A stretch of 36,813 nt of DNA from Defluviitaleaceae bacterium (GTDB taxonomy: Bacteria > Bacillota > Clostridia > Lachnospirales > WQUN01). The notes below the pieces were generated by a model. The model saw nothing but the letters and a program-made list of their open reading frames with translations. It did no database searches and was not told the origin of the DNA. Where the stretch lies: the NCBI GenBank assembly GCA_009785615.1, contig WQVX01000010.1:1-36813 (forward strand), given 5' to 3'. This document shows, one piece after another, positions 4,646-35,900 of this stretch (position 1 is the first letter of the stretch; each line of letters opens with the position of its first letter). Position numbers and translations under genes: made by a program.

Positions 4646-4991
4646 GGGGACGTAATGGTTTCGACGGGGATTTAGAAAATAGGAATAGCCATCCGTAGAC
4701 GGTGACTGCGTTAACAAAACCGAACCTTAAAAAAGAAACGACAATAATAATTTAGCTTTCGCGGCTTAATGCCGTCGTCGGCTCTGGTTCACTCGTAGGC
4801 TAGAAACCCGGCGTCGATTATACGAGGCACTTTTTCGATAGCCCGCTTAGCTTCGGAAAAAGATTTTAAGCTACCAAAGCTACAAGCGTGTTGGTTTGCA
4901 CGTAGCTAAGGGAATGTCTAATAACCAACTATGATGGTAGAAGTTTTTATCGAAGGATCTTCGGACGCGAGTTCGACTCTCGCCGTCTCCA
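4646..4991 (+). ncRNA. ssrA: tmRNA (transfer-messenger RNA), chromosomal copy
   Basis: tmRNA rescues stalled ribosomes and adds a degradation tag. The 5' end GGGGACG pairs with CGTCTCC at 4984-4990, giving the seven-pair acceptor stem, and A4991 is the discriminator. CCA is not encoded and must be added. The 5' signature GGUUUCGACGGGGA and the T arm GCGAG-TTCGACT-CTCGC are both present. The tag reading frame ends at TAA 4767-4769 and reads DNNNLAFAA, probably with a preceding Asn from AAC 4737-4739; the exact resume codon is uncertain. The hydrophobic LAFAA end fits ClpXP recognition. The 3' end is also the left boundary of the accessory island. Confidence 0.96.
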
Positions 4992-5020
4992 TAAACGGAA
5001 TCCACGACACAAAGATTGTG
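4983..5020 (+). repeat. left copy of 38-bp direct repeat (attL-like), ssrA 3' end
   Basis: The last 9 bases of ssrA and the following 29 bases recur at 9435-9472 with four mismatches. The first 26 bases differ at one position only. This is the pattern left when an element inserts at the 3' end of an RNA gene and restores it. The shared 13-base core (CCGTCTCCATAAA, 4983-4995) also occurs, with other flanks, at 10820 and 14014, and with one change at 15053. Confidence 0.7.
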
Positions 5021-5024
5021 GAAG

Positions 5025-5050
5025 AAAGCCTGTATATTCAGGCTTTTTTG
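5025..5050 (+). terminator. intrinsic terminator after ssrA
   Basis: AAAGCCTG and CAGGCTTT form an 8-bp stem over a 6-base loop, followed directly by a run of six T. It lies 34 bases past the tmRNA 3' end and is a convincing rho-independent terminator for the chromosomal tmRNA. Confidence 0.85.
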
Positions 5051-5196
5051 TTGTCTTGAATTTTCTTGGACGAGAGTTTTAGGGTGGTTTTTGAGCGAAA
5101 TTTTTTTGGAATGGGAAACGATATGGAAAACGGTTGTGGATTCTGAAAATGGTGGTTTCGTGTTATTTTTCATGGCAAATTTGGGTAAAAAATCAA

Positions 5197-5259
5197 CGTG
5201 GTTTCTGAATGTGGTGATTGGCGTGTTCTGAGCAAACTCCACCATGTTCAGTAACCACG
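5197..5259 (+). repeat. imperfect palindrome, first copy of island repeat
   Basis: The left arm cgtggtttctgaatgtggtg (5197-5216) pairs with a right arm at 5237-5259 that ends gttcagtaaccacg. The match is nearly complete over about 20 positions. The same architecture, outer arms CGTGGTTACTG/CAGTAACCACG and inner GGTGG/CCACC, recurs at 9336-9398, 10721-10783, 13913-13977 and, decayed, at 14953-15017. Here it is followed by a gene relic rather than by the ssrA-derived core. Confidence 0.65.
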
Positions 5260-5279
5260 GATTAGAGCAAAATATAGAC

Positions 5280-5733
5280 CGCAAGCGTTCTTCGGGACAT
5301 AGAAAAAACCAGCAGACGGATATTGACCTCAAATGCGTGTATATGTGCTATTTACAGCTTGCCTTGTATGGTATTCCAGCAACAGTTGTGCATGGGAACA
5401 GCTTGACACTTGAAGAATGGTCGCGTTGGCATACCCCCTGTCTATGTTCTTGACGGCTGGGGCTGGAAAATGCGCCGCACCATTACGCAATCTGAAAAGG
5501 CAGTTGAGGATATGCAGGCTATTCCCGAGGTGTATACGGCTGATGATACACAGGCCATTGAAGAAAATCAAGCAGTTGTTGAAGCGTATGAATCCAATGA
5601 GGCACAGACAATCGAAGAAATTCCAACCAGTGAGGAAATTCAGCCCAACGTGAGACTTCCTACGCATAAGGAAGCTGTTGAAACCTTTGAGCAGTTGGAT
5701 TTATTCTCAATATTAAATGACGAAGGGAAGTGA
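5280..5733 (+). pseudogene. frameshifted C-terminal relic of a conjugative-element protein
   Basis: Two frames join into one recognisable protein tail. The first contains MCYLQLALYGIPATVVHGNS and LTLEEWSRW (to about 5433). The second continues PPVYVLDGWGWK and runs to the TGA at 5731-5733, ending EQLDLFSILNDEGK. From memory, text of this kind ends large methylase or DUF-type proteins of clostridial Tn1549-like conjugative elements; the exact family is uncertain. The frame switches at a run of five C (5434-5438). No start or N-terminal part is present, so this is a truncated and frameshifted remnant. Its place just inside the island suggests that the first module descends from a larger conjugative element. 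Confidence 0.55.
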
Positions 5734-5737
5734 GAAC

Positions 5738-5824
5738 ATGATTTGGTTCTTAGCTGGCTTTGCAGTATGTATCGGTACGTTAGTGGTCTTGGAAAATTCC
5801 ATGAGGAAAAGGAGCGAGGAGTAA
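5738..5824 (+). CDS. 28-residue single-span membrane peptide
   Basis: This tiny open frame starts at ATG 5738, 4 bases after the stop of the preceding relic, with GAAGGGAAGTGAG upstream as ribosome binding site. The peptide is MIWFLAGFAVCIGTLVVLE followed by a basic and acidic tail, so one membrane span of about 18 residues. Its position after the relic and its length resemble the very short membrane proteins (DUF3789 type) of clostridial conjugative elements. That similarity is from memory and weak. It may be a leftover of the parent element. Confidence 0.4.
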   Translation: MIWFLAGFAVCIGTLVVLENSMRKRSEE

Positions 5825-5965
5825 TTGATTACGTTTTTGACAGTGGCGGCGGTTGTGTCTGCCAAGTTTGCCATTGATGCATTTACGAGCGGAAGCCTGT
5901 TAGGGGATACTCTCTATGTAGCAAGTAGGAACTGCAAAGTTACTCGGTATAGGGTAAAAAAGTAA
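5825..5965 (+). CDS. 46-residue hypothetical protein
   Basis: It starts with TTG at 5825, immediately after the TAA of the 28-residue gene. GGAGCGAGGAG upstream serves as ribosome binding site, which suggests translational coupling. The N-terminal third is hydrophobic (MITFLTVAAVVSAKFAIDAF) and the end is basic (RYRVKK). I do not recognise a family. It is likely another small gene of the parent element, or a decayed fragment. The strong hairpin at 5983-6023 ends the group. Confidence 0.35.
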   Translation: MITFLTVAAVVSAKFAIDAFTSGSLLGDTLYVASRNCKVTRYRVKK

Positions 5966-5982
5966 AGCGGGACAACATCAAT

Positions 5983-6042
5983 ATCCGGCGGCATTCAGGG
6001 GGGATTTCCTCTTGCCGCCGGATTGTTGCACATATTTTTTTT
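5983..6042 (+). terminator. strong hairpin followed by T-run
   Basis: ATCCGGCGGCA (5983-5993) pairs perfectly with TGCCGCCGGAT (6013-6023), 11 base pairs over a 19-base loop. A run of eight T follows about 10 bases later. The gap between stem and T-run makes it an imperfect intrinsic terminator, but it cleanly separates the relic genes from the repressor promoter. Confidence 0.55.
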
Positions 6043-6055
6043 GGTTTTAGAATAA

Positions 6056-6091
6056 TGTTGACTTGACATTCAAGTCAACATCTGCTATACT
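6056..6091 (+). promoter_or_regulatory. promoter with overlapping palindromic operator for the XRE repressor
   Basis: TTGACA (6063-6068), a 17-base spacer and TATACT (6086-6091) make a near-consensus sigma-A promoter. It is overlaid by a perfect palindrome, TGTTGACTTGA-cat-TCAAGTCAACA (6056-6080), covering the -35 box. The gene it drives encodes a helix-turn-helix protein, so autorepression is the simplest reading (inference). A shortened version, TGTTGA-8 bases-TCAACA, lies at 7105-7124. Confidence 0.8.
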
Positions 6092-6112
6092 GTTTTCATG
6101 GAGGGTTGCATC

Positions 6113-6445
6113 ATGAACGATTTTGGGCTGGAGATAAAGACGTTGAGGAAGGCGCGGCGCATTACGCAACGTGATTTGGCGGAAAAGGCAGGGGTGTATT
6201 TTACTTATATAAGCAAAATGGAAAATGGTCAGTTGAAAAATTTCCCTTCCGTAGATACAATAATCAAAATTGCAGATATATTGAATACTGATGCGGATAA
6301 TCTTATCCTTCTTGCAAAAAAAGTGCCGGAGACTTTTCGAGAAACTATTGTTGATGATGAATTGGCAGTTGCGTTGTTAAGGAAAATGCCGTCAATGACA
6401 CCGGAAAAAAAGGAAAAATTGAGGGATTTGATTAGTGATGACTAA
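6113..6445 (+). CDS. XRE-family helix-turn-helix repressor
   Basis: This 110-residue DNA-binding protein has an N-terminal HTH (about residues 6-60). It includes LRKARRITQRDLAEKAG and YISKMENGQ, the classic lambda-Cro type core with a Q/R-rich first helix and a recognition helix before the ENG turn. I chose ATG 6113 because GGAGGG (6100-6105) precedes it by 7 bases; an ATG at 6098 would sit at the predicted transcript start. Its 3' end overlaps the metalloprotease gene by 8 bases. This pairing matches the ImmR/ImmA modules of integrative elements, where the protease cleaves the repressor to allow induction. Confidence 0.9.
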   Translation: MNDFGLEIKTLRKARRITQRDLAEKAGVYFTYISKMENGQLKNFPSVDTIIKIADILNTDADNLILLAKKVPETFRETIVDDELAVALLRKMPSMTPEKKEKLRDLISDD

Positions 6446-7085
6446 GAAATATATTTCATATGGCGAAATGAATAGGATTACGGAATCTGTTTTAGCGGGG
6501 GCAAATATTCCTACTGTTTGGCAAGGTTTCGTAAACAAAGTGGATATTGATGCCTTGATTGAGTTTGACTATGACCTTGAAATCGCATGGAAGGATATAG
6601 ATTACCTTGCTCCCGGCGAGACGGTATTCGCCGCTATCACTCCAAAGCATAAGCGAATCTACATGAATGAAACTAAAAAGACCCTGTTTATGGAAAAAAT
6701 GGGGACAATGAATTTTTCAAAAGCACATGAATTGGGTCATTGGATTTTGCATATAACGGAACAAAATGCCTATGAACAGCTTACATTTGAAGAACATGAG
6801 ACGTTTTTTTGCCGTAGTGCTTTAAAAAAACCGCTCCAAGAAATACAGGCTGATATGTTTGCGGCGTGTTTGTTGATGCCGAAAGACATTATAGCTGGCG
6901 TTATAAATGAGCTAAAACAACGTGGTCAAGTTACTTTTCCCGATTTGTACAGATTGTCAGGGGAATTTGAGGTTAGCATATCGGCTCTTACAATCCGAGT
7001 GCAGGAGCTCAAACTGCTTTGTATTGCAGATAAAATGATTTACCACAGTGAAGCTGAGGCTATGGGGCAGTTATCGTTATTATAA
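6438..7085 (+). CDS. ImmA/IrrE-family zinc metallopeptidase
   Basis: This 215-residue member of the ImmA/IrrE (COG2856) family has the zinc motif HELGH at residues 97-101, inside FSKAHELGHWILH. A downstream glutamate ligand candidate lies in QEIQAD (E135), followed by MFAACLLMP, a family hallmark. Such proteases cut the partner XRE repressor on a signal such as DNA damage or quorum peptide, inducing the element. The start ATG 6438 lies inside the end of the repressor gene, so the two are translationally coupled. No transfer or integrase genes remain around it, so in this island it may control only the local cargo. Confidence 0.88.
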   Translation: MTKKYISYGEMNRITESVLAGANIPTVWQGFVNKVDIDALIEFDYDLEIAWKDIDYLAPGETVFAAITPKHKRIYMNETKKTLFMEKMGTMNFSKAHELGHWILHITEQNAYEQLTFEEHETFFCRSALKKPLQEIQADMFAACLLMPKDIIAGVINELKQRGQVTFPDLYRLSGEFEVSISALTIRVQELKLLCIADKMIYHSEAEAMGQLSLL

Positions 7086-7104
7086 AATATTTTTTTATTT
7101 ATTA

Positions 7105-7124
7105 TGTTGAGTTGAATGTCAACA
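7105..7124. promoter_or_regulatory. operator-like inverted repeat
   Basis: TGTTGA and TCAACA flank eight bases. The outer arms match those of the perfect operator at 6056-6080, but the inner part has decayed or is shortened. It sits between the ImmA-like gene and the DUF4417 gene. No clear -10 box follows, so it may be a second, weaker repressor site or a relic. Confidence 0.35.
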
Positions 7125-7190
7125 CAATGCGGGGTGGAATATTTGAGGAAGAATCAGTAAAGCAAAGCGTCAAGACAGGATTTTAAACTG

Positions 7191-7778
7191 TTGCGTAATG
7201 ATTTCAAGACGGCAGGCAGGTGGAATATGCCTATTATCAAAAAGAGCGAGGTCAATGTTACCGACTTACAACTTGTTGGGTCTGACAAAATCCGTATTAA
7301 TGATAAAAGCATTAACATCATGAAGGCGGTGCATTTCTTTGTGGAGGATAACAAGATGGAGTGGTATTACAATAACCCAGAAAAATTTCTCCCTCGTTTA
7401 GCGCAGTATACACACATACTCACGCCAGATTATAGCCTGTACACCGATATGCCAATGGCTATACAAGCGTATAATACATTTAAGAACAGATGGTGCGGAG
7501 CTTATTGGCAAGAATATGGCTTATCAATAATTCCGACTGTAAGCTGGAGTACGGATGAAAGTTTTGAATTTTGTTTTGATGGGCTTGAAGATGGAACAGT
7601 AGTAGCAATATCAACATTGGGTGGCTTGAAAGAGAAAAATAACTTTTTAAGAGGATATTTTGAAATGACAAAGAGAATTAATCCAAAACAGGTACTATGC
7701 TTCGGAAAAGCGTTCCCGGAAATGGGTGACGAGGTTATTGTTGTGCCTTATTTGGAAACAACGGGGAGGGTAAGCTAA
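7191..7778 (+). CDS. DUF4417 protein
   Basis: This protein is of the DUF4417 type found in phages and integrative elements; its molecular function is not established. Family-like blocks are LLRNDFKTAGRW near the start, VHFFVEDNKMEWYY, LTPDYSLYTDMP, KNRWCGAYWQEYGLSIIPT and SFEFCFDG followed by VVAISTLGG. Two starts are possible. TTG 7191 keeps the conserved N-terminal segment but has a poor ribosome binding site. ATG 7227 has AGGTGG upstream but loses that segment. Conserved-looking codons also run upstream of 7191 back to a stop, so the 5' end may be truncated. Its stop shares one base with the next start (taATG). Confidence 0.75.
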   Translation: MRNDFKTAGRWNMPIIKKSEVNVTDLQLVGSDKIRINDKSINIMKAVHFFVEDNKMEWYYNNPEKFLPRLAQYTHILTPDYSLYTDMPMAIQAYNTFKNRWCGAYWQEYGLSIIPTVSWSTDESFEFCFDGLEDGTVVAISTLGGLKEKNNFLRGYFEMTKRINPKQVLCFGKAFPEMGDEVIVVPYLETTGRVS

Positions 7779-8149
7779 TGGGTGGTCGTGGTAAAAGTTC
7801 GGGGTTAGGTGTGCGACAATTAACCCTTGATGATGGACAAAGACAGCATATGATTTCTGAAATTGTTAAAGACGCATCGCAACAAAGAACAATTATGGAA
7901 AATAGAGGTTTTGGACAGGCCGGACGTTCTTCGTCTCCGAGCTTGTTCAAGAAGTGTGCTTGCTGTGGAGAGTATACCCTTGCAGCAGGTACAGAATATG
8001 AGATATGTCATATTTGTGGATGGATTGATGACCCGTATCAAAATAGACATCCAAAAAGTGAGCAAGGTAAAAACTCTATATCACTTGTTGAAGCGCGAAA
8101 ATTTCATCAAGAATCAATATCTGTCAAGTCAGCGATAAGTGCAAATTAA
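7778..8149 (+). CDS. MGGRG-tailed protein with CPCC-type zinc domain
   Basis: The protein has 123 residues. It begins MGGRGKSSGLG, a glycine-rich N-terminus often seen in phage and element proteins. It ends in a Cys-rich CPCC-type domain: CACCGEYTL, about 15 residues, then CHICGWIDD and a LVEARKFH tail. The usual CPCC is CACC here. Four cysteines in two CxxC pairs suggest zinc binding. CPCC domains are common in small standalone proteins near polymorphic toxin and mobile loci; their function is unknown. GGGAGGG precedes the ATG and the start overlaps the DUF4417 stop by one base, so the two genes form an operon. Confidence 0.65.
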   Translation: MGGRGKSSGLGVRQLTLDDGQRQHMISEIVKDASQQRTIMENRGFGQAGRSSSPSLFKKCACCGEYTLAAGTEYEICHICGWIDDPYQNRHPKSEQGKNSISLVEARKFHQESISVKSAISAN

Positions 8150-8191
8150 ACTGAATCCCGAAATTGGGTTCGATTTTAATTTGTTTTCCCC

Positions 8192-8220
8192 TTGTAAATG
8201 TCGCTAAAATGGGGTATAAT
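8192..8220 (+). promoter_or_regulatory. sigma-A promoter of the second tmRNA
   Basis: TTGTAA (8192-8197), exactly 17 bases, then TATAAT (8215-8220). The predicted start falls near 8227, some 18 bases before the mature tmRNA 5' end at 8245. The promoter shows that the second tmRNA is an independent transcription unit rather than a broken duplicate. Confidence 0.8.
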
Positions 8221-8244
8221 CTTACCAGCGTAATAAAATCGTTC

Positions 8245-8610
8245 GGGGACGTAATGGTTTCGACGGGGGTTTTGAAAATAGGGATAGCCATCCACAGCGG
8301 TAACTGTGAAAAACTGCCAACCTTAAAAAAGAAACGACAATAATAATTACGCATTTGCGGCTTAATTAAAGCCGTGGTCGGCTCGGGGAGTCCTGCATAC
8401 CCGAATCCCGGCCTCGATATGTGGGGAACTTTTCCGCCCGTAGCTTTGAAGCGGTAAAAGATTAAAAAGCTACCGAAGCCTTTCGCGTGTCGGTTCGCGT
8501 AAGGAATAGGGAACACGTTGGGTAACGCCCGACACCAAATAAACCAACTATGATGGTAGAAGTCTTTATCTATGAGCTTTCGGACTCGGGTTCAACTCCC
8601 GACGTCTCCA
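8245..8610 (+). ncRNA. ssrA: second, complete tmRNA gene inside the island
   Basis: This is a full tmRNA of 366 bases, 20 longer than the chromosomal copy. GGGGACG at 8245 pairs with CGTCTCC at 8603-8609. The T arm is TCGGG-TTCAACT-CCCGA, and the 5' core GTAATGGTTTCGACGGGG is identical to the chromosomal copy. The tag frame ends at TAA 8363-8365 and reads DNNNYAFAA, differing from the chromosomal DNNNLAFAA by Leu to Tyr. The two genes diverge strongly in loops and pseudoknots but keep the acceptor pairing, so this is a functional-looking paralog or transferred copy, not a recent duplication. The 3' flank (atccaattc) does not match the island core repeats. I see no terminator after it. Confidence 0.93.
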
Positions 8611-8647
8611 TCCAATTCTTGCCATTTTAGAGGATGGACAAAAAAAT

Positions 8648-8911
8648 ATGGATTTTGGTCAGTGGAAGAAGGGAAGTGATTTTGTGCCTAAACCTCTTGA
8701 AGTCGGATATACTGATGATATACCCCAAATATTTGCTAGAGGTGTAGTCATGGAAAAACCAACCTATAAACCGCTTGACTTGGGAAAAATTAAGGACAAG
8801 AAAAGTGTTTTGATTTCTACAGAAGAAGCGTTGAAAGACGTTACCCCTATTGAATGGGATGCAGATGTTTTGAATGGAAATAAGCAAGTGATACTCGTTG
8901 AGAAAAAATAA
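8648..8911 (+). CDS. small hypothetical protein, possible antitoxin partner
   Basis: The protein has 87 residues if ATG 8648 is used, or 76 if GTG 8684 is used, which has GAAGGGAAGTG just upstream and gives MPKPLEVGYTDDIPQIF. It is acidic and polar, with no membrane segment and no family I recognise. Its middle (KPTYKPLDLGKIKDKKSVLIS) and EALKDVTPIEW could be an unstructured binding tail. It ends 19 bases before the next gene, and both follow the second tmRNA with no terminator between. The two-gene layout, small first partner then a roughly 130-residue second one, is that of a toxin-antitoxin pair, but this is only contextual. Confidence 0.55.
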   Translation: MDFGQWKKGSDFVPKPLEVGYTDDIPQIFARGVVMEKPTYKPLDLGKIKDKKSVLISTEEALKDVTPIEWDADVLNGNKQVILVEKK

Positions 8912-8930
8912 CTGCTTGCAGGAGTAACTT

Positions 8931-9329
8931 ATGTGTACCATTGGGGATATAATATTGATTAAATCATATCAACATAAGGGGCGTGCTTTGTCGAAGCACT
9001 CCTTTGTTGTGTTGAGCGTTGAGTCCGGCAAGATAGAAGGGCTTGACTATGATTTTGTCTGTAATGTCCTTTCTTCCTTTAAGAACGAGCAACAAAGAGC
9101 CAAAAAGTTAGGTTTTCTGGGCAATTTTGAAATAACCCATGTAGATAGTTCCATCGTACAAGGCAACACAAGAGACGGCTATGCGAAAGCCGAACAATTA
9201 TACTATTTCAATCGAGACAAAACAGATTATACCATTATCGGGAAACTCCATGAAGATGTGTTTAATCGTCTCGTTGAATTTATAGAAAACTTGGATGTGC
9301 CGTTGGAACACATCACGGATAATTTGTAA
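8931..9329 (+). CDS. PemK/MazF-like fold candidate, unknown function
   Basis: The protein has 132 residues, with start ATG 8931 preceded by CAGGAG. The N-terminal stretch GDIILIKSYQHKGRALSKHS followed by FVVLSVESG resembles the opening beta strands of MazF/PemK or ToxN-like RNases (GDIvlv, then a basic loop, then VLS). The rest, including QQRAKKLGFLGNF and the C-terminal helix VFNRLVEFIENL, does not match a family I can name. With the small upstream gene it could be a toxin-antitoxin pair. Without a structural comparison this remains a guess. It ends 7 bases before the palindrome at 9336, so it is the last gene of the first module. Confidence 0.5.
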   Translation: MCTIGDIILIKSYQHKGRALSKHSFVVLSVESGKIEGLDYDFVCNVLSSFKNEQQRAKKLGFLGNFEITHVDSSIVQGNTRDGYAKAEQLYYFNRDKTDYTIIGKLHEDVFNRLVEFIENLDVPLEHITDNL

Positions 9330-9335
9330 TATAGT

Positions 9336-9472
9336 CGTGGATTTAGAATGTGGTGGTTGTACTTTTTTTGACCAACACCACCACAAACAGTAACCACGTA
9401 CAAAAATAATGTCGTGGATACCGATATAGGCGTTCCGTCTCCATAAACGAAATCCACGACGCAAATGTTGTG
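9336..9472 (+). repeat. island repeat 2: palindrome plus ssrA-derived core (attR-like)
   Basis: The unit begins with an imperfect palindrome (9336-9398: CGTGGATT and TGTGGTGG against CCACCACA and AACCACG). Then comes gtcgtggataccgatatagg (9411-9430) and the core CCGTCTCCATAAA at 9435-9447. The right flank, through 9472, matches the ssrA flank 4996-5020. This makes it the natural right boundary of the first module (about 4.45 kb). The upstream part is shared with the units at 10721 and 14953. Confidence 0.7.
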
Positions 9473-9520
9473 TCGTGGATTTAGGCAGGGCTGGTTTGTC
9501 TCCGCAATCGAAATTCTCGA
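9471..9520 (+). repeat. island repeat 2b: degenerate second core
   Basis: Another half-site follows at once. TGTCGTGGATTTAGGCAGGG resembles the left flank of the 14014 core (gtcgtggattcagacaaggg). GTCTCC at 9498-9503 is followed by gcaatcgaaattctcga, a decayed version of the ssrA right flank. The two cores are 63 bases apart with nothing between them, as expected for tandem attachment sites or for a module that was lost. Confidence 0.5.
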
Positions 9521-9643
9521 TATAAAATTTAAATTACGGATATTGATTTGGAAAGTTTTCCAAGCCTAGACAATAAAATTTTGTATTTGCATTTTTATCA
9601 TTCGATTTTCATTATTCATGTTAAATTTGAGGGGGTGTATCAG

Positions 9644-10636
9644 TTGAATTTTCCAACTCAAAGTCACAGTCAAAAAATGGGACGCGCTGGTGAGTCTCGT
9701 TGGGCTGACTTTGTGGTAAATTCGTTAGGTTGCATCTATCACAAGATAGATGGCTCTGACGATTTTGGATTGGATGGTCACATAGAACTTGTTGATGATG
9801 GTTTAGTTACAGGAAAACTCGTAGCCATGCAAGTGAAACATGGTGACTCTTATTTTTCTCATAAAACTTCATTAGGTTATAAGTATATTGCAAAGGATAA
9901 ATACTTGAATTACTACCTGAATGCCCCATCTGCCGTATTCATCGTGATTATGAGTGGGGATTTTTCCGAGATGCTATGGGTGAAATTTGACATACAGAAT
10001 ATATTTCCATATGGAAAAAATTCGTGGTGGATAGAGATTCCGAATACAAATAACTTACTATCAAATTTTAAACAGCATTTGTTTTCTGTTGCAGGACGTG
10101 CTTTCGATTATTCCGAAACAATTAACTATTTTAAAACTTTGAATTTGAGTCTCAACAAGGCAGACAATCTTACTATTGGTATCAGCAAAAAAGAAGTAGA
10201 TACCTTAGATTTTACAGGGGTTCTATCAACGTTTTCGCACATTTCTAAAAATGTAGCATTTAGAAATAAGTTCAGGTCGTCTTGTTCAGTTTGTTTTCCG
10301 CAGTACACTGATGACCCAAGAGAACTCTATCAAATTCCCGAGGTTGTTTGTTGGATTAGGCAAACCATAGAATTAGACATTCCATGGTTTTACTTTTTAA
10401 GTATGGATAGTCATTCTGGTATAAAAATAATACTCCTTTCCTGTGTAATTGTTGAATCACAAAAAAAAATAGACAACTCCATGCACGTACAAATAGACAA
10501 TGAATCGTTATCGGAATTTTTAATTACTGCTTTTCTCAACCTCAATACATTTACAGAAAAATATGGGGTAAATTTAGAAATAAATAAAGAGCTGTCAAAG
10601 AAAATTGCGAAATTTTTAGTTTATGGATTGAGTTAA
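9644..10636 (+). CDS. DUF4365 (PD-(D/E)XK-like) protein
   Basis: This 330-residue protein has an N-terminal DUF4365-type nuclease-like domain. GRAGESRWADF carries Glu17, GSDDFGLDGHIEL carries Asp44, and KLVAMQVKHGDSY carries the Q63-x-K65 pair that replaces the usual E-x-K of the PD-(D/E)XK fold. The C-terminal 200 residues are unassigned. I chose TTG 9644 because GAGGGGGTG lies 6 bases upstream; upstream in-frame codons give no sensible protein. DUF4365 proteins are frequent single genes in defence islands, but their target is not established. It is the only gene of its module, between cores at 9498 and 10820. No dedicated promoter is obvious. Confidence 0.75.
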   Translation: MNFPTQSHSQKMGRAGESRWADFVVNSLGCIYHKIDGSDDFGLDGHIELVDDGLVTGKLVAMQVKHGDSYFSHKTSLGYKYIAKDKYLNYYLNAPSAVFIVIMSGDFSEMLWVKFDIQNIFPYGKNSWWIEIPNTNNLLSNFKQHLFSVAGRAFDYSETINYFKTLNLSLNKADNLTIGISKKEVDTLDFTGVLSTFSHISKNVAFRNKFRSSCSVCFPQYTDDPRELYQIPEVVCWIRQTIELDIPWFYFLSMDSHSGIKIILLSCVIVESQKKIDNSMHVQIDNESLSEFLITAFLNLNTFTEKYGVNLEINKELSKKIAKFLVYGLS

Positions 10637-10720: not shown

Positions 10721-10933
10721 CGTGGTTACTGAACACGGTGGTTGCAACTTTTTCTATCGACACCACCACAAACAATAACCACGTACAAAATTTAAGTCGT
10801 GGATACCGATATAGGCATTCCGTCTCCATAAAAGGCTTCCTCGACGGAAAGGTTGAAGGGGCGTGTTTATTGGGTTTCCGGCAATTCAAAAATAGCCCTG
10901 TGATTATATGAAAATTTTTGCAGGGCTATCTTT
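10721..10933 (+). repeat. island repeat 3: palindrome, core and terminator-like tail
   Basis: The palindrome is CGTGGTTACTGAAC...CAATAACCACG (10721-10783). It is followed by gtcgtggataccgatatagg and the core CCGTCTCCATAAA (10820-10832). A different right flank follows: aggcttcctcgacggaaagg, a G-rich stretch and tttccggcaattcaaaa. It ends in a hairpin, AAAATAGCCCTG (10889-10900) with CAGGGCTATCTTT (10921-10933). The same right flank follows the cores at 14014 and 15053. An open frame beginning at 10908 starts inside the hairpin loop, so I do not call it a gene. The interval 10637-10720 is noncoding. Confidence 0.7.
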
Positions 10934-11101: not shown

Positions 11102-11382
11102 TTGGAACGGTATATGTTGCTATCACCTTCGGCAAACAGAGCAAAGTCGTGGACATGTGAGCATTGTGAAAATTGGGAGCAAAAAGACATTGTATTTTGT
11201 CTAAAATGTTTTTGTGGGCGCACCCGGAGAATTATGAACATATTGCAGGTGAACAGCAACGGGTTATTGTTGTTATGTTTACCGGGGATGAAATTGAGGA
11301 TTATAATCGTCTAATCGAAATGGCAGGTAAAGAAAATGCACAGCAAGCAATTAAGGATATTATTCATGATAGCTTGACATAG
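11102..11382 (+). pseudogene. frameshifted zinc-ribbon gene relic
   Basis: Two frames read through into one plausible protein. The first, RYMLLSPSANRAKSWTCEHC then ENWEQKDIVFCLKCF, runs to about 11210. The second, WAHPENYEHIAGEQQRVIVV and on to IHDSLT, ends at the stop at 11380-11382. The switch lies at the tttttg run around 11209-11214. CEHC and CLKC would make a four-cysteine zinc site. I recall similar CxxC/WAxPExYxHIA arrangements at the ends of clostridial accessory proteins but cannot name the family. No good start is present, so the N-terminal part is missing as well. It sits between repeat 3 and the gene at 11451. Confidence 0.5.
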
Positions 11383-11450
11383 TTTCTTGCGTTTTTGTGA
11401 GATATAGCGAAATACAATTGGTGACGCATCTGTAACTTGGAGGGAAATTG

Positions 11451-12701
11451 ATGAAAGAAATGTATAATTCAAGACCAATAATTAGCAATATCGCAAAGAA
11501 TGAACTTGTCAAATCACTGAGTCATCATGGTATATCTTGTAAATTTAGTTTTTCTGAAAATGAATTAGCGGATTTTATTGATGATTTATTGACTAATAAG
11601 AAAATCAACAAAAGTACTATAGACAAAATTTACTATGAATTGATTTACTTTGGACAACATAAGTGTTGTTATTTAAGTGAGTTTGAAGAATTTAACGACG
11701 AATCATTACAATATGGAAAGGCCGTGTTGGAAAAAAATTTCGGCATAACAAAACCATTTGTTGATTTTATGTTGGCACTTTCAAGAGGGGAAAAGATTGT
11801 TGCACTCGAATATTGCTATGACGAAAAATCTTTAGATGCTATAAAATTTGTTTTCAGAAAAGAAATTAAAACTACTATTGAAAACGAAATTAAGGTCAGA
11901 TATGCGTTTATACCTATCATAATTCAAATCCCACAAAAAAGAGTTATAGTTATGGTAAACCCTAAAAGAGATGGAGCAAAAGAAAAGGAACATGTATTTT
12001 CTCATATCGCAAAGGAATATCTTGATAGAATAAAATCTATTTTCAATTTGAAATGGGTAGAAATACGAAATAAGTATGCCCAGTATAATCATTGTATTAC
12101 TTTGAATTTCACAAACGAAATATGTCATTTAGCAATGGGTAGACCAAATGAATTAGTTGAGGAGAATCTGAAGGAGACTATAGAGTTGTCCTCAAAGACC
12201 ATTGAAAATTTTCTTGAAACTTATAAGGACATTACTTGCTTGAGTGAGAAGCGTCAACAATCAAGTCTATTAAATATTTACGAAAGCATACAGTCTGTCA
12301 TTGAAAATGCTGTAATTTCAAACTATATCGTAGAAAATGGTAAAGGGATAAGTGTAAACTCTAAAATTGGATATATGTCCTACATAAAGTTTCATGACAG
12401 AACAAACAGTCTTATGAGAATGCGCGGCGAATACTATAAACCAATTACAGATTCGGAAACATTTCTTTCTTTGCGTAATGACTTGAAAAAGTACCGTGAA
12501 ATATCGGCAATAAGGATAAAGTGGTTGGTAGAGGGTATGAAATTTGATGTTAAATATGAACTTGAAAATATGACCACTTTAGTGCTTCGCTTTTATCATG
12601 AATTTTGTGAGGGTGATTACAACAATGCTATCCAAGAATATGAAAAATTTGGACAAGACGCTGTTGCAGAAGTTTGTACAATGGATAAAGTGGAAGCCTG
12701 A
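11451..12701 (+). CDS. unknown protein upstream of the phosphorylase-domain gene
   Basis: This is a 416-residue soluble protein with start ATG 11451; GGAGGG lies 7 bases upstream. It is rich in Lys, Glu and Ile and predicted mostly helical. Short features are YAFIPIIIQIPQKRVIVMVN (a likely beta hairpin region), HVFSHIAKEYLDRIKSIF and EYEKFGQDAVAEV near the end. I recognise no domain. It ends at TGA 12699-12701, while the next open frame already runs in another register from 12598. Reading through with a +1 slip at GCC-TGA-A would give one chain of about 800 residues ending in the phosphorylase domain. The N-terminal part may be the sensor or scaffold of that unit (inference). Confidence 0.7.
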   Translation: MKEMYNSRPIISNIAKNELVKSLSHHGISCKFSFSENELADFIDDLLTNKKINKSTIDKIYYELIYFGQHKCCYLSEFEEFNDESLQYGKAVLEKNFGITKPFVDFMLALSRGEKIVALEYCYDEKSLDAIKFVFRKEIKTTIENEIKVRYAFIPIIIQIPQKRVIVMVNPKRDGAKEKEHVFSHIAKEYLDRIKSIFNLKWVEIRNKYAQYNHCITLNFTNEICHLAMGRPNELVEENLKETIELSSKTIENFLETYKDITCLSEKRQQSSLLNIYESIQSVIENAVISNYIVENGKGISVNSKIGYMSYIKFHDRTNSLMRMRGEYYKPITDSETFLSLRNDLKKYREISAIRIKWLVEGMKFDVKYELENMTTLVLRFYHEFCEGDYNNAIQEYEKFGQDAVAEVCTMDKVEA

Positions 12702-13875
12702 AGAAGAATTGATTGCACTAACGCCAATAACATTTGCAAATGACGCAAAAATAGCCATTGAAGCGTCAAATAAGTTTTTTAAGGAACTCTGTGAGATTAG
12801 TCTTGCGAAACCTAAGCCAAGAATGAAATGTAACAATTGTGGTGATATAATCACATTTGACGGTAAAGATAGTGATATTTATATTTGTGAAATATGTGAT
12901 GACGAAATAAGTATGGATTATCAAGATTTAGATAATGTCGTTTATTCTGTGGATAAGAAGGACTTTAAGAACGCTAGTTTTTCTACACAGACTGAAATAT
13001 TAAAAACTTTCAGATCAGAAAAAAACAGTACTGATAAAACAGAATGCTTGACCATGCCGGAGAATACAGATGTGATTGAGGTGAACCATGTGAAAATTGC
13101 AATAATAACCGCCTTGGAAAAAGAGCTGAATCCTTTACTTAGTTTAATTATTGATGGTGAATCAAGGGGAAATGGTGTATATACATATCACGAGGGGTTT
13201 CTTTTTAATGGTGATAATAGGATTTCTGTAGTTGCAGCACATTGTCATAGCATGGGAATGGTTGCCACGACTGGATTAACAATGGATATTATTCATAAAT
13301 ATAAACCAGAATATCTCGCTATGATTGGCATGGCAGCGTCTTTAAAAGCGCGAAGTCATCATGGATACGGTGATATTTTAATACCTTCAAGCATACTGGA
13401 CTATGGAAGCGGGAAGATTGTCGAAGATAACGGAAGCGGTAAAAGTTTTCTTTTTGAACCCTATATGTTGGATTTAGATGCGGGTTTGATGAATAAACTC
13501 ACAAATTTTAAACGCACTCAAGATGTTCACAGGGATATAAAAGATTTATTTGGTAAAGTCGCAACTACTCCTAATACAGAGTTAAAATTGGATATAGGAG
13601 TAATGGCTTCAGGTAGTGCAGTTGTTGCAAGTAAAGGTTTTTCTGATGAAATGATAACACCGCAACATAGAAAAATAATAGGAATCGACATGGAAGTATA
13701 CGGCATGTTTCATGCCTGCAGGTACAATGATACAGAATGTAAGCCAAAGTGCTTTGCAATGAAATCGGTGGTAGATTATGCTGATAATGAAAAATCTGAT
13801 AAATTTCATGATTATGCCTGTTTTGTTAGCGCGAATGCTATTCAGCGATTTGCTTTAAACTATTTATGTGAATGA
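12598..13875 (+). CDS. zinc-ribbon plus nucleoside phosphorylase-superfamily protein
   Basis: The open frame ends in a PNP/UDP/MTA-nucleosidase fold: KIAIITALEKELNPLL, MIGMAASLKARSHHGYGDI, MASGSAVVASKGF, GIDMEVYGMFHAC, then KSVVDYADNEKSDKFHDYAC. Such domains cleave nucleosides or NAD-like substrates, and close relatives act as effectors in anti-phage systems. Before it lies a zinc ribbon (MKCNNCGDI, about 18 residues, CEICDDE). The true start is uncertain. The first 104 bases overlap the upstream gene and have no ribosome binding site. GTG 13090, with GAGGTG 6 bases before it, would give a standalone phosphorylase of 262 residues beginning MKIAIITALEKEL. Either a fusion by frameshift or an internal start is possible. 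Confidence 0.75.
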   Translation: MNFVRVITTMLSKNMKNLDKTLLQKFVQWIKWKPEEELIALTPITFANDAKIAIEASNKFFKELCEISLAKPKPRMKCNNCGDIITFDGKDSDIYICEICDDEISMDYQDLDNVVYSVDKKDFKNASFSTQTEILKTFRSEKNSTDKTECLTMPENTDVIEVNHVKIAIITALEKELNPLLSLIIDGESRGNGVYTYHEGFLFNGDNRISVVAAHCHSMGMVATTGLTMDIIHKYKPEYLAMIGMAASLKARSHHGYGDILIPSSILDYGSGKIVEDNGSGKSFLFEPYMLDLDAGLMNKLTNFKRTQDVHRDIKDLFGKVATTPNTELKLDIGVMASGSAVVASKGFSDEMITPQHRKIIGIDMEVYGMFHACRYNDTECKPKCFAMKSVVDYADNEKSDKFHDYACFVSANAIQRFALNYLCE

Positions 13876-13912
13876 CTTGCTTTATACTATATGAAGTGGT
13901 ACAGTGGGTAAA

Positions 13913-14125
13913 ATTGTGGATTCTGAATATGGTGGTTAAGCCTTTTTAGTCCAACACCACCATAAACAGTAACCACGAACAAAAGTGGTGTCGTGGATTC
14001 AGACAAGGGCACCCCGTCTCCATAAAAGGCTTCCTCGACGGAAAGGTTGAGGGGGCATGTTTATTGGGTTTCCGGCAATTTAAAAATAGCCCTGCATTAC
14101 GAAAAAATTTTGCAAGGCTATTTTT
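13913..14125 (+). repeat. island repeat 4: palindrome, core and terminator-like tail
   Basis: The palindrome spans 13913-13977 (gtggattctgaatatggtgg against caccaccataaacagtaacc). The left flank gtcgtggattcagacaaggg differs from that of repeats 2, 3 and 5. The core CCGTCTCCATAAA is at 14014-14026. The right flank aggcttcctcgacggaaagg matches repeat 3. The tail hairpin is AAAAATAGCC-c-TGCA (14082-14096) with TGCA-a-GGCTATTTTT (14111-14125), ending in five T, so it can act as a terminator. The rest of the 13876-14246 gap holds nothing else I recognise. Confidence 0.7.
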
Positions 14126-14246: not shown

Positions 14247-14528
14247 ATGAATAAAGTGACAGCATTAAAAAAACAAGCATTTGAACTGCTCCAAGATGTT
14301 CCGGAAGATAAAATGAATTATGTTATACTAATATTAAAAGGGTTGAATGGACTATTAAATAACCAACCCAATTTCAATACGGGGTCGATTACTGAATTAA
14401 ACACGTCTGACGATGCACTTAAAGCGTGGGAAGGTTTTAGACAATATAAAGGAATCATTCCTTGCACGATAGATGAAAAAGCAGAATTATCGAAAGCTAG
14501 GGATGAAAAGTATGCGCGTTCTAATTGA
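14247..14528 (+). CDS. antitoxin of a PIN-toxin pair (VapB-like position)
   Basis: The protein has 93 residues, or 90 if GTG 14256 is used; AAAGGA is too close to ATG 14247 but 9 bases from that GTG. The N-terminal helix TALKKQAFELLQDVPEDKMN followed by ILILKGLNGLL looks like the helical antitoxin type found before PIN toxins in Clostridia. The C-terminal half contains DDALKAWEGFRQYKG, a probable toxin-binding tail. It overlaps the toxin gene by 17 bases, giving coupled translation. These pairs usually autoregulate and act as addiction modules. They are the only protein genes of this module. Confidence 0.75.
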   Translation: MNKVTALKKQAFELLQDVPEDKMNYVILILKGLNGLLNNQPNFNTGSITELNTSDDALKAWEGFRQYKGIIPCTIDEKAELSKARDEKYARSN

Positions 14529-14931
14529 TACTAACGTAATAATGGATTTTATCGTGGAACGAGGGTCTTTTACAAGTGACGCAGAAAAAGTTATTGGTTT
14601 GTGTATAGAAAAACGAATCCCTTGCTGTATTACTGCTCATACTGTACCTAACTTGTTTTATATTCTCCGAAAACACCTATCTATTGAAGAGAGACGAGAT
14701 GTTCTATTGAAAATTTGTAAAATGTTCACAGTAGTTGGCATTGATTCAAATAAATTAGAATCCGCACTGCAAGATTCTAATTTTGAAGATTTTGAGGATT
14801 GCTTACAGGTTCAATGTGCCAAGGATTTTCCGGCAGATTTTATTGTCACAAGAAATGTGAAAGATTTTGCTAATTCGTCTGTATCAGTTTTGGAACCTGT
14901 GAAACTGATAGCAAAATTATCAGAACTATAG
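14512..14931 (+). CDS. PIN-domain toxin (VapC-like RNase)
   Basis: This 139-residue PIN-domain protein starts at ATG 14512 (AGGGAT upstream). The acidic residues typical of the nuclease site are visible: Asp6 in VLIDTNV, Asp93 and Asp96 in FEDFEDCLQ, and Asp109 in ADFIVTRNVKDF. The family cleaves RNA, usually tRNA or rRNA, when freed from its antitoxin. The ITAHTVPNLFYILR segment is the usual central helix. The length is normal. The paired antitoxin immediately upstream and overlapping supports a working type II toxin-antitoxin module. Confidence 0.88.
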   Translation: MRVLIDTNVIMDFIVERGSFTSDAEKVIGLCIEKRIPCCITAHTVPNLFYILRKHLSIEERRDVLLKICKMFTVVGIDSNKLESALQDSNFEDFEDCLQVQCAKDFPADFIVTRNVKDFANSSVSVLEPVKLIAKLSEL

Positions 14932-14952: not shown

Positions 14953-15166
14953 CCGTGGTTACTGACAATGGCGATTACAACTATGTACTCCTACACCACC
15001 TATATCGATATCCACGAATAAAAATAGAGTCGTGGATACCGATATAGGCACCCCATCTCCATAAAAGGTTTCCTCTACAGAAAGGTTGAGGGGGGGTGTG
15101 TTTGCTGGGGTTCCGGCAATTCAAAAATATCCCTGCATTACGAAAAAATTTTGTAGGGATATTTTT
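14953..15166 (+). repeat. island repeat 5: decayed palindrome, variant core, terminator-like tail
   Basis: The outer arm cgtggttactga (14954-14965) now faces a weaker partner near gatatccacg. The left flank gtcgtggataccgatatagg is intact. The core reads CCATCTCCATAAA (15053-15065), with A for G at its third base. The right flank aggtttcctctacagaaagg has several changes. The tail hairpin AAAAATATCCCTGCA (15123-15137) and TGTAGGGATATTTTT (15152-15166) is well kept. This is the most diverged and probably the oldest copy, and it is the last core in the island. Confidence 0.65.
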
Positions 15167-34178: not shown

Positions 34179-35900
34179 ATGGACAGACAGCAATTGAATG
34201 ACATAATTAATGGAATATTATCTGAAACTGACATATTTAGCGGTTTTGGCGTAACTATAATCGTTGCAATTCTATCATTTGCGGGATTTCTTATTAAAAG
34301 AATATTTTTTAGCAAGGGTAAAAAAGAAACAACTACTCCTGAAACTCCCTTTCCTTTTCCACGCTATTTAACTCCGGGGGCACCGGCACTAGGTAAAGAG
34401 TTCATCCATCGGGAGGATATAATTAAAGAGCTACACAAAGCAATCAAGCAAAACCGCAAGCTTGCGCTTATTAACGGGCTTGGTGGCATTGGTAAAACCA
34501 CTGTGGCTAAAGCGTTATATCACAAAGTCAAAGATGAGTTTAAACATATAGCATGGGTGGAGTTTCAGCATAACATAGAGGTAAGCCTACTTACTTCATT
34601 TAGGATTTATGAAGATGTTGAAGATAACGCTATCAGATACAGAAATATAAAAAATTTCCTACTGGATGCTACGCAAGACACCATCATTTTTATTGATAAC
34701 GTATCTAACGATGATGGACTTGACTTTATTAAACGACTTCAAGCAAATGTGATATTAACATCAAGATTAGATGATATAGGCAGTTTTGAGATATTCCCAA
34801 TAGATATTTTATCAGAAAAGCAATGTATTAATATTTTTTACAAATACTACAAATATGATGAAGCAAGAAAACAAAAAGAGTACGTCCGCGAGATTGTAAA
34901 CCTTGTAAGATGTCATACACTTTCCATAGAGTTGCTGGCACGTGCAGCAAACACACCCAACTATCCATTGGAAAAGTACGTAGCAGATTTAAAAGCAAAA
35001 GGGATAGTGTACCCAGAGCTGGAAGTAGAAACTGACCATACGGATGTTTCTCAGACTATAGCTGAACACTTAAAGGGATTGTTTGAGCTTGTTTTAGTAA
35101 GCGAAAAGCAAAAATGGATATTGCTAAATTTCGCGCTTATGCCAAGTATTGAGATACCTGCCGAGGTAAAACATTGGCTTGCTTGTGATGTTAATGATAT
35201 AAACAGGCTGACAAAACTGGGCTGGCTATCCGCATCAGCAACAGGTTATGAAATGCATCCGATAGTAAAAGAAGCTGTACTGCTTCAATATAAAGATGAA
35301 GGCATACAATATGAAGATGTTGAAACGATTGTATGGTATATGATGAGCAAGGCGTACATAAAAGATACAGATATATATACGGATGTGCGTGTGCGCCTTA
35401 ATATTGCTGAGTCCGTAATGGGGCATATTTGCAATATTGAAAAGGAAGAAATTGCTCTACTGCTTAATGAAATTGCTCTACTGCTTAATAACATTACATT
35501 GGTGTATAATAATCAGGAAGATTACCTAAAGGCTATGGAATGGTTTCAGAAGGCTTTGAAAATCTATGAAAAGGTGTTGGGCGTAGAGCATCCATCCACC
35601 GCCACTACCTATAATAACATTGCATTGGTGTATAATAATCAGGAAGATTACCCAAAGGCTATGGAATGGTTTCAGAAGGCTTTGAAAATCTATGAAAAGA
35701 TGTTGGGCGTAGAACATCCATCCACCGCCACTACCTATAATAACATTGGTTTGGTGTATGATAATCTGGGAGATTACCCAAAGGCTTTGGAATGGAATCA
35801 CAAGGCTTTGATTATCCATGAAAAGATATTAGGCCCAGAGCATCCAGACACCATCATAACCAAGAAAAATATTGCAGCAGTAAAAGATTTACTAAAGTAA
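34179..35900 (+). CDS. membrane-anchored STAND (NB-ARC) ATPase with TPR repeats
   Basis: The protein has 573 residues. A single membrane helix lies at about 21-42, then a Pro-rich linker and an NB-ARC/STAND NTPase: Walker A GLGGIGKT (100-107), Walker B IIFIDN (169-174), sensor VILTSR (191-196) and a winged-helix MHPIVKEA motif. A 42-residue TPR tract follows (three units from about 437). STAND proteins are signal-triggered switches; in bacteria many detect phage proteins through repeat domains and then fire an effector. Here no separate effector domain is seen, and the N-terminal membrane helix may itself be the output. GGGGGT precedes the ATG. The next gene is an Rpn-type nuclease. Confidence 0.88.
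   Translation: MDRQQLNDIINGILSETDIFSGFGVTIIVAILSFAGFLIKRIFFSKGKKETTTPETPFPFPRYLTPGAPALGKEFIHREDIIKELHKAIKQNRKLALINGLGGIGKTTVAKALYHKVKDEFKHIAWVEFQHNIEVSLLTSFRIYEDVEDNAIRYRNIKNFLLDATQDTIIFIDNVSNDDGLDFIKRLQANVILTSRLDDIGSFEIFPIDILSEKQCINIFYKYYKYDEARKQKEYVREIVNLVRCHTLSIELLARAANTPNYPLEKYVADLKAKGIVYPELEVETDHTDVSQTIAEHLKGLFELVLVSEKQKWILLNFALMPSIEIPAEVKHWLACDVNDINRLTKLGWLSASATGYEMHPIVKEAVLLQYKDEGIQYEDVETIVWYMMSKAYIKDTDIYTDVRVRLNIAESVMGHICNIEKEEIALLLNEIALLLNNITLVYNNQEDYLKAMEWFQKALKIYEKVLGVEHPSTATTYNNIALVYNNQEDYPKAMEWFQKALKIYEKMLGVEHPSTATTYNNIGLVYDNLGDYPKALEWNHKALIIHEKILGPEHPDTIITKKNIAAVKDLLK
35448..35864 (+). repeat. tandem DNA repeats inside the STAND gene
   Basis: A 21-base unit (gaaattgctctactgcttaa plus t) is repeated exactly at 35448-35468 and 35469-35489. 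Three 126-base TPR units start at 35487, 35613 and 35739; the first two differ at only 4 of 126 bases and the third is clearly more diverged. All unit lengths are multiples of three, so copy number can change without losing frame. Confidence 0.9.

Follow-up and report, generated by a model that had tools for sequence, protein, structure and literature searches.

Complete tmRNAs acquired horizontally in addition to the native one, with tags that differ from it, have already been published and are rare. Four mycobacteria carry such extra full-length tmRNAs, whose tags are unlike the native tags, two of them derived from phage and two from another genus (PMC9569102). An update of the tmRNA Website lists ssrA genes of phages as well as second or third alleles of ssrA, the additional genes being on chromosomes, plasmids or phages (PMC4131195), and tmRNAs are also present in huge phages (PMC7162821). 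The gene considered here, tmRNA B, resembles the mycobacterial genes in being a horizontally acquired second full tmRNA with a different tag. It differs in that the hosts are unrelated, and the part of the mycobacterial account available does not describe its tmRNAs as lying inside an ssrA-targeted array; likewise, the available portion of the Website update records additional ssrA genes, as here, but does not mention any within a cassette array linked to ssrA. A whole tmRNA in such a setting is less usual. The setting itself has a counterpart in Dehalococcoides, where tandem islands at ssrA are separated by short repeated copies of the 3' end of ssrA and some are without an integration module (PMC3146451). 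The present array shares the tandem arrangement behind ssrA, the ssrA-end repeats and the lack of an integration module, but the Dehalococcoides islands have a serine recombinase and reductive dehalogenase genes, and the part of that account available makes no mention of a second full tmRNA. The elements described here span 1.0-4.5 kb.

The window, by which is meant the whole stretch of DNA analysed (36,813 nucleotides), belongs to a draft genome of 240 contigs (G000). ARAGORN and the Rfam model RF00023 agree on two full tmRNAs in it, and an Rfam search of the whole genome gave no third full copy. The two genes, and the promoter-like site in front of the second, are as follows.

4646..4991, forward strand: native chromosomal ssrA (tmRNA A), tag DNNNLAFAA, identified by ARAGORN and Rfam, downstream of tig-clpP-clpX.
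8192..8220, forward strand: promoter-like site TTGTAA-17-TATAAT of B, which aligns to the promoters of ssrA in G022 and G019.
8245..8610, forward strand: tmRNA B, the second complete gene; its tag is DNNNYAFAA, and it has the acceptor GGGGACG/CGTCTCC with G3-U70, a T arm and pseudoknots, as identified by ARAGORN, Rfam and a check of its helices.

The ORFs that precede A, recognised by eye, we take to be trigger factor, clpP and clpX. The covariance model gives A 173.6 bits (E 3e-69) and B 150.7 bits (E 2e-59), and with model positions 1-374 covered, against a gathering score of 47, the match of B is full-length, as is that of A. The original prediction of a second complete tmRNA, made from the letters alone, is thus upheld far beyond chance by the comparison of scores that it had proposed, and its coordinates, tags and promoter spacing were correct. 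It had also stated that B differs widely from the chromosomal copy, and the identity between the two is indeed 72%. Duplication of A by the assembly was considered as a source of B and ruled out, the identity being merely 72%.

Structurally, B retains 79 of the 79 pairs of a consensus structure predicted from 14 relatives with B left out; A retains 68 of 71 pairs of the same structure. Compared with the native ssrA of G022, a relative discussed below, B has ten changes at paired positions, by which four pairs are altered on both sides and none is broken, whereas random placement breaks 7.8 on average; compared with that of G019 there are 13 such changes, six two-sided pairs and none broken, where 10.0 broken pairs would be expected. 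The tRNA-like domain keeps its acceptor GGGGACG/CGTCTCC with A73 and G3-U70, and a T stem TCGGG/CCCGA with the loop TTCAACT. The tag frame is open, encoding DNNNYAFAA followed by TAA in the loop of a complete hairpin, and both it and the sequence upstream of it resemble those of relatives. All helices of PK1-PK3 can be drawn; PK4 has an outer helix with one mismatch and an uncertain inner pairing, as it does in the relatives. Free-energy folding gave z-scores of -1.4 for B and -0.7 for A, a measure that is uninformative for pseudoknotted RNA. On these modelled helices B is a structurally intact tmRNA: the acceptor pairing, T arm and open tag frame claimed for it are present, and with every predicted pair kept, the structural defect that would have told against it was not found, PK4 being less certain than the other pseudoknots. 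Its partner SmpB is encoded by one gene in the genome (G000:C39:20122-20547). B looks like an ordinary tmRNA and not a re-engineered one. The compensatory changes could all predate capture of the gene, selection before and after that event being inseparable, and are for that reason no proof of present use.

In a comparison with 29 native tmRNAs from the family, the identity of B to the native ssrA of G019 and to that of G022 is 92%; both belong to one genus, g12. A maximum-likelihood tree, a route to the donor lineage that the original prediction had suggested, joins B to G022 with bootstrap 99 and to G022 and G019 together with 95, and places it inside g12 with 98; A stands elsewhere, beside G028 of genus g13. 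The resemblance extends beyond the gene: 8184-8611 aligns at 88% with the ssrA of G022 and its promoter, while 8650-9430 and 11378-13912 align at 89% and 91%, respectively, with cassettes downstream of that ssrA, where the two are adjacent and lie about 1.1 kb behind it. Since the match spans the promoter region and the downstream cassettes, g12 shares the setting as well as the tmRNA. Of the family tmRNAs sampled, only A, B and G022 have the acceptor GGGGACG/CGTCTCC, which is the form agreeing with the array core. These comparisons indicate that B is not a variant of A and that its donor was a relative of a different genus within the family (g12, near G022). A phage or plasmid origin was also considered for B and for its left flank, and phages, plasmids and viral contigs gave no useful match; for 4994-8150, no substantial match was obtained in the family, phages or plasmids. 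G022 is a Defluviitaleaceae MAG, and its array repeat was found in WQVV01000059, from the Defluviitaleaceae MAG of isolate Emb289P1bin48; to judge from the isolate name, MAGs such as this one come from a study of higher-termite guts (PMC7024585).

Cores of the ssrA 3' end, of the type CCGTCTCCATAAA, occur at 4983, 9435, 10820, 14014 and 15053; all but the first lie within 179-nt repeats that are at least 68% alike. Between the cores lie four tandem elements of about 4.5, 1.4, 3.2 and 1.0 kb, and direct repeats of the ssrA 3' end are present at both borders of the island. B sits in the first element, bounded by the cores at 4983 and 9435, so that its description as carried by an island has been borne out. 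The features of the array are these.

4983..5020, forward strand: attL, consisting of the ssrA 3' end core CCGTCTCCATAAA and the right arm of the first element (repeat comparison).
4994..9446, forward strand: first tandem ssrA-linked element, without integrase, containing B and bounded by the cores at 4983 and 9435.
6098..7085, forward strand: pair of Xre/CapH-like repressor and ImmA/IrrE (CapP-like) protease (protein annotation).
7191..8149, forward strand: DUF4417 protein and Cys-rich CPCC protein (protein annotation).
8648..9329, forward strand: two small ORFs (87 and 132 aa), with no family match above the cut-off; DNA 89% identical to a cassette downstream of G022 ssrA.
9337..9515, forward strand: array repeat with left arm, ssrA-end core at 9435 and right arm (repeat comparison).
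9548..10636, forward strand: cargo of the second element, a DUF4365 nuclease-like protein (protein annotation).
10722..10900, forward strand: array repeat, core at 10820 (repeat comparison).
11448..13875, forward strand: cargo of the third element, a 417-aa protein and a PNP_UDP_1 protein (PADLOC PDC-M60C); 91% to a G022 cassette, and annotation.
13916..14094, forward strand: array repeat, core at 14014 (repeat comparison).
14247..14931, forward strand: cargo of the fourth element, an ORF that is antitoxin-like by position and a PIN_3 toxin-like protein (ORF list and annotation).
14955..15133, forward strand: last array repeat, core at 15053 (repeat comparison).

Its annotation suggests that the cargo consists of genes for defence and toxin-antitoxin systems, PDC-M60C appearing to be an effector of the phosphorylase type. 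No integrase was found among the array proteins scanned or in this contig; 15 tyrosine recombinase matches lie elsewhere in the genome, and at the 12 such loci checked no convincing array repeat adjoined them. The lack of an integrase in the array fits integrase-less, accreted islands only. Between 9337 and 15133, the four 179-nt repeats have inverted-repeat arms and delimit integrase-less cassettes of 1.0-3.2 kb that are reshuffled in G022, where two of the array's cassettes are arranged differently. In G021 the array repeat stands immediately at ssrA. G019 and G026 gave no match to the array repeat and have other sequence after ssrA; the genes downstream in the window were not located there. 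Two further observations were made in the same genome: three consecutive tyrosine recombinase genes occur at G000:C210:795-3266, and at 35486-35863, within the ORF 34179-35900, a 126-nt sequence is directly repeated three times in tandem (97% and 79%).

Such a mosaic could in principle be a chimera of assembly, in which an array of some other species in the same metagenome became attached to the flank bearing A, and a misjoin is conceivable within the last approximately 30 bases of the ssrA of A, which are identical to those of G022. B, though, stands in unique sequence, its flanks (at sampled points in 8150-8244 and 8600-8650) having no exact repeat longer than 11 bases elsewhere in the window, which makes a repeat-driven misjoin at B inside the window unlikely; moreover, the right arms of attL (4983) and of the repeat at 9435 are of one type, which a true element would be expected to show. 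An artefact of this kind is regarded as improbable.

The reading that we prefer, with a probability of roughly 0.75, is that B is a chromosomal ssrA captured together with its promoter from a g12 relative and carried as cargo of an ssrA-integrated element, and that it is transcribed and works normally, most likely redundantly with A. The donor ssrA and its promoter would have travelled in a small element, which became integrated at the native ssrA 3' end. Upstream of the donor gene an att-like site, acting with the att site downstream of the first cassette, may have given an excised circle containing the whole gene, which would then have integrated at the native ssrA. The right end would lie at the att core, the element ending at 9446, and the left end at the promoter or a little upstream of it (about 8170-8184); remains of a second att-like site may be represented by the arm-like repeats at 5134-5260. 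The route is conjectural, since the junction between B and the cassette (8612-8648) has no recognisable element arm and 4994-8150 has no matched source. Once in place, B would be transcribed from its own promoter, charged with alanine, bound by the host SmpB and engaged in normal trans-translation, and its tag would be handled by the host proteases like the native one.

The promoter bears on whether B is used at all. Taken alone, TTGTAA-17-TATAAT does not exceed the chance expectation, which is 1.7 sites of this kind in 900 bases, but in alignment an equivalent site precedes the native ssrA of G022 and of G019, and the 17-base-spaced promoter that B had been said to possess is in this way supported. 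The -10 box of B, TATAAT, is better than the TACACT and TATACT of those relatives. A terminator-like hairpin follows A at 5022-5049; a scan downstream of B found none, so B may be read through into the genes for the 87- and 132-aa proteins, and the transcript may then be trimmed. This difference from A, the miscellaneous assortment of cassettes that makes up the array, and the chance that the compensated changes are older than the capture would all suit a silent passenger, recently captured, perhaps unexpressed and without a role, which is intact because decay has lacked time. The good -10 box and the integrity of the tag frame and of every tested helix speak against such a passenger, which we hold to be a serious possibility, though one that falls short of even odds. 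As it differs from the preferred reading only on whether B is used, the confidences placed in the two overlap. B is probably expressed and redundant with A.

The tags of A and B, DNNNLAFAA and DNNNYAFAA, differ at one residue, L against Y, and it had been proposed that the altered tag may route stalled proteins to a different fate. This proposal found no support: the Y tag is native to G019, G022, G027 and G029, three of the four being in the donor genus, and the ending AFAA is common to both tags. ClpXP recognises the C-terminal residues of the tag. Given this recognition and the AFAA with which both tags end, a changed fate of the tagged proteins is unlikely, and we consider the single substitution a most improbable basis for one.

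It could also be supposed that B is kept under selection for its benefit to the element, for example through the rescue of ribosomes that toxin or defence cargo has stalled, or as a backup for ssrA at insertions. Its neighbours include PIN-toxin-like, CapH/CapP-like and PNP effector-like genes, and an unrelated prophage at ssrA in G115 likewise carries its own tmRNA; A remains intact, however, the close relatives of B are ordinary chromosomal ssrA genes, and G022 and G021 have array elements without a second tmRNA. A role of this sort is thought unlikely. The narrower suggestion that the extra gene guards against disruption of ssrA met with no favouring evidence, A being intact with its 3' end restored by the element as usual. 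The premise that elements inserting in ssrA carry only its 3' end stands as a general rule and has exceptions, of which the G115 prophage is one.

Of 355 genomes in the order that have a strong tmRNA match, seven have two tmRNAs, the genome of the window among them. In four genomes of g54 (G115, G257, G077 and G274; loci L084-L089 and L091) the second tmRNA is compact and divergent, with the tag DKQYSAVA or DKQYLSVA, and the three that were checked lie among phage genes. In G115 (L088:6158-11506) a prophage with a tyrosine integrase stands directly behind the host ssrA and has a full tmRNA of its own, and is in this respect like the island of B; its tmRNA is compact and very divergent (DKQYSAVA), among phage genes by the integrase, and in this it is unlike B. 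The prophage-like tmRNAs of g54 adjoin anti-repressor and recombination genes and have tags that do not end in AA, the hosts using DKDNFAFAA; they are possibly a more unusual finding than B. It is a doubtful proposition, on the strength of the array and the g54 prophage, that ssrA-targeted elements of the order repeatedly gain whole tmRNAs because a private tmRNA helps the element, for example in sustaining translation while the element's toxins or defence effectors are active. A divergent second tmRNA of 90.9 bits was noted in G342 (L083/L090), with the tag ANRKVAIAA beside the host tag AEDNLAYAA. The two copies in G141 are about 90% identical, on short contigs of a bin with about 4% contamination, and are possibly a strain mixture. 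ARAGORN gave odd tags (among them DNTHLRLN and AKPYKESTTII) for some native tmRNAs of the family (L026, L040, L038, L031 and L025, in G026, G024, G023, G017 and G035), which are probably mis-set frames.

The arrangement means that a complete ssrA, beyond its 3' end alone, can travel between genera with elements targeted to ssrA, and B beside A is a natural experiment that can tell whether a tmRNA of foreign origin and its tag work next to the native pair. It also reveals, at the ssrA of gut bacteria, a tandem array of very small defence-like cassettes that are shared and reshuffled.
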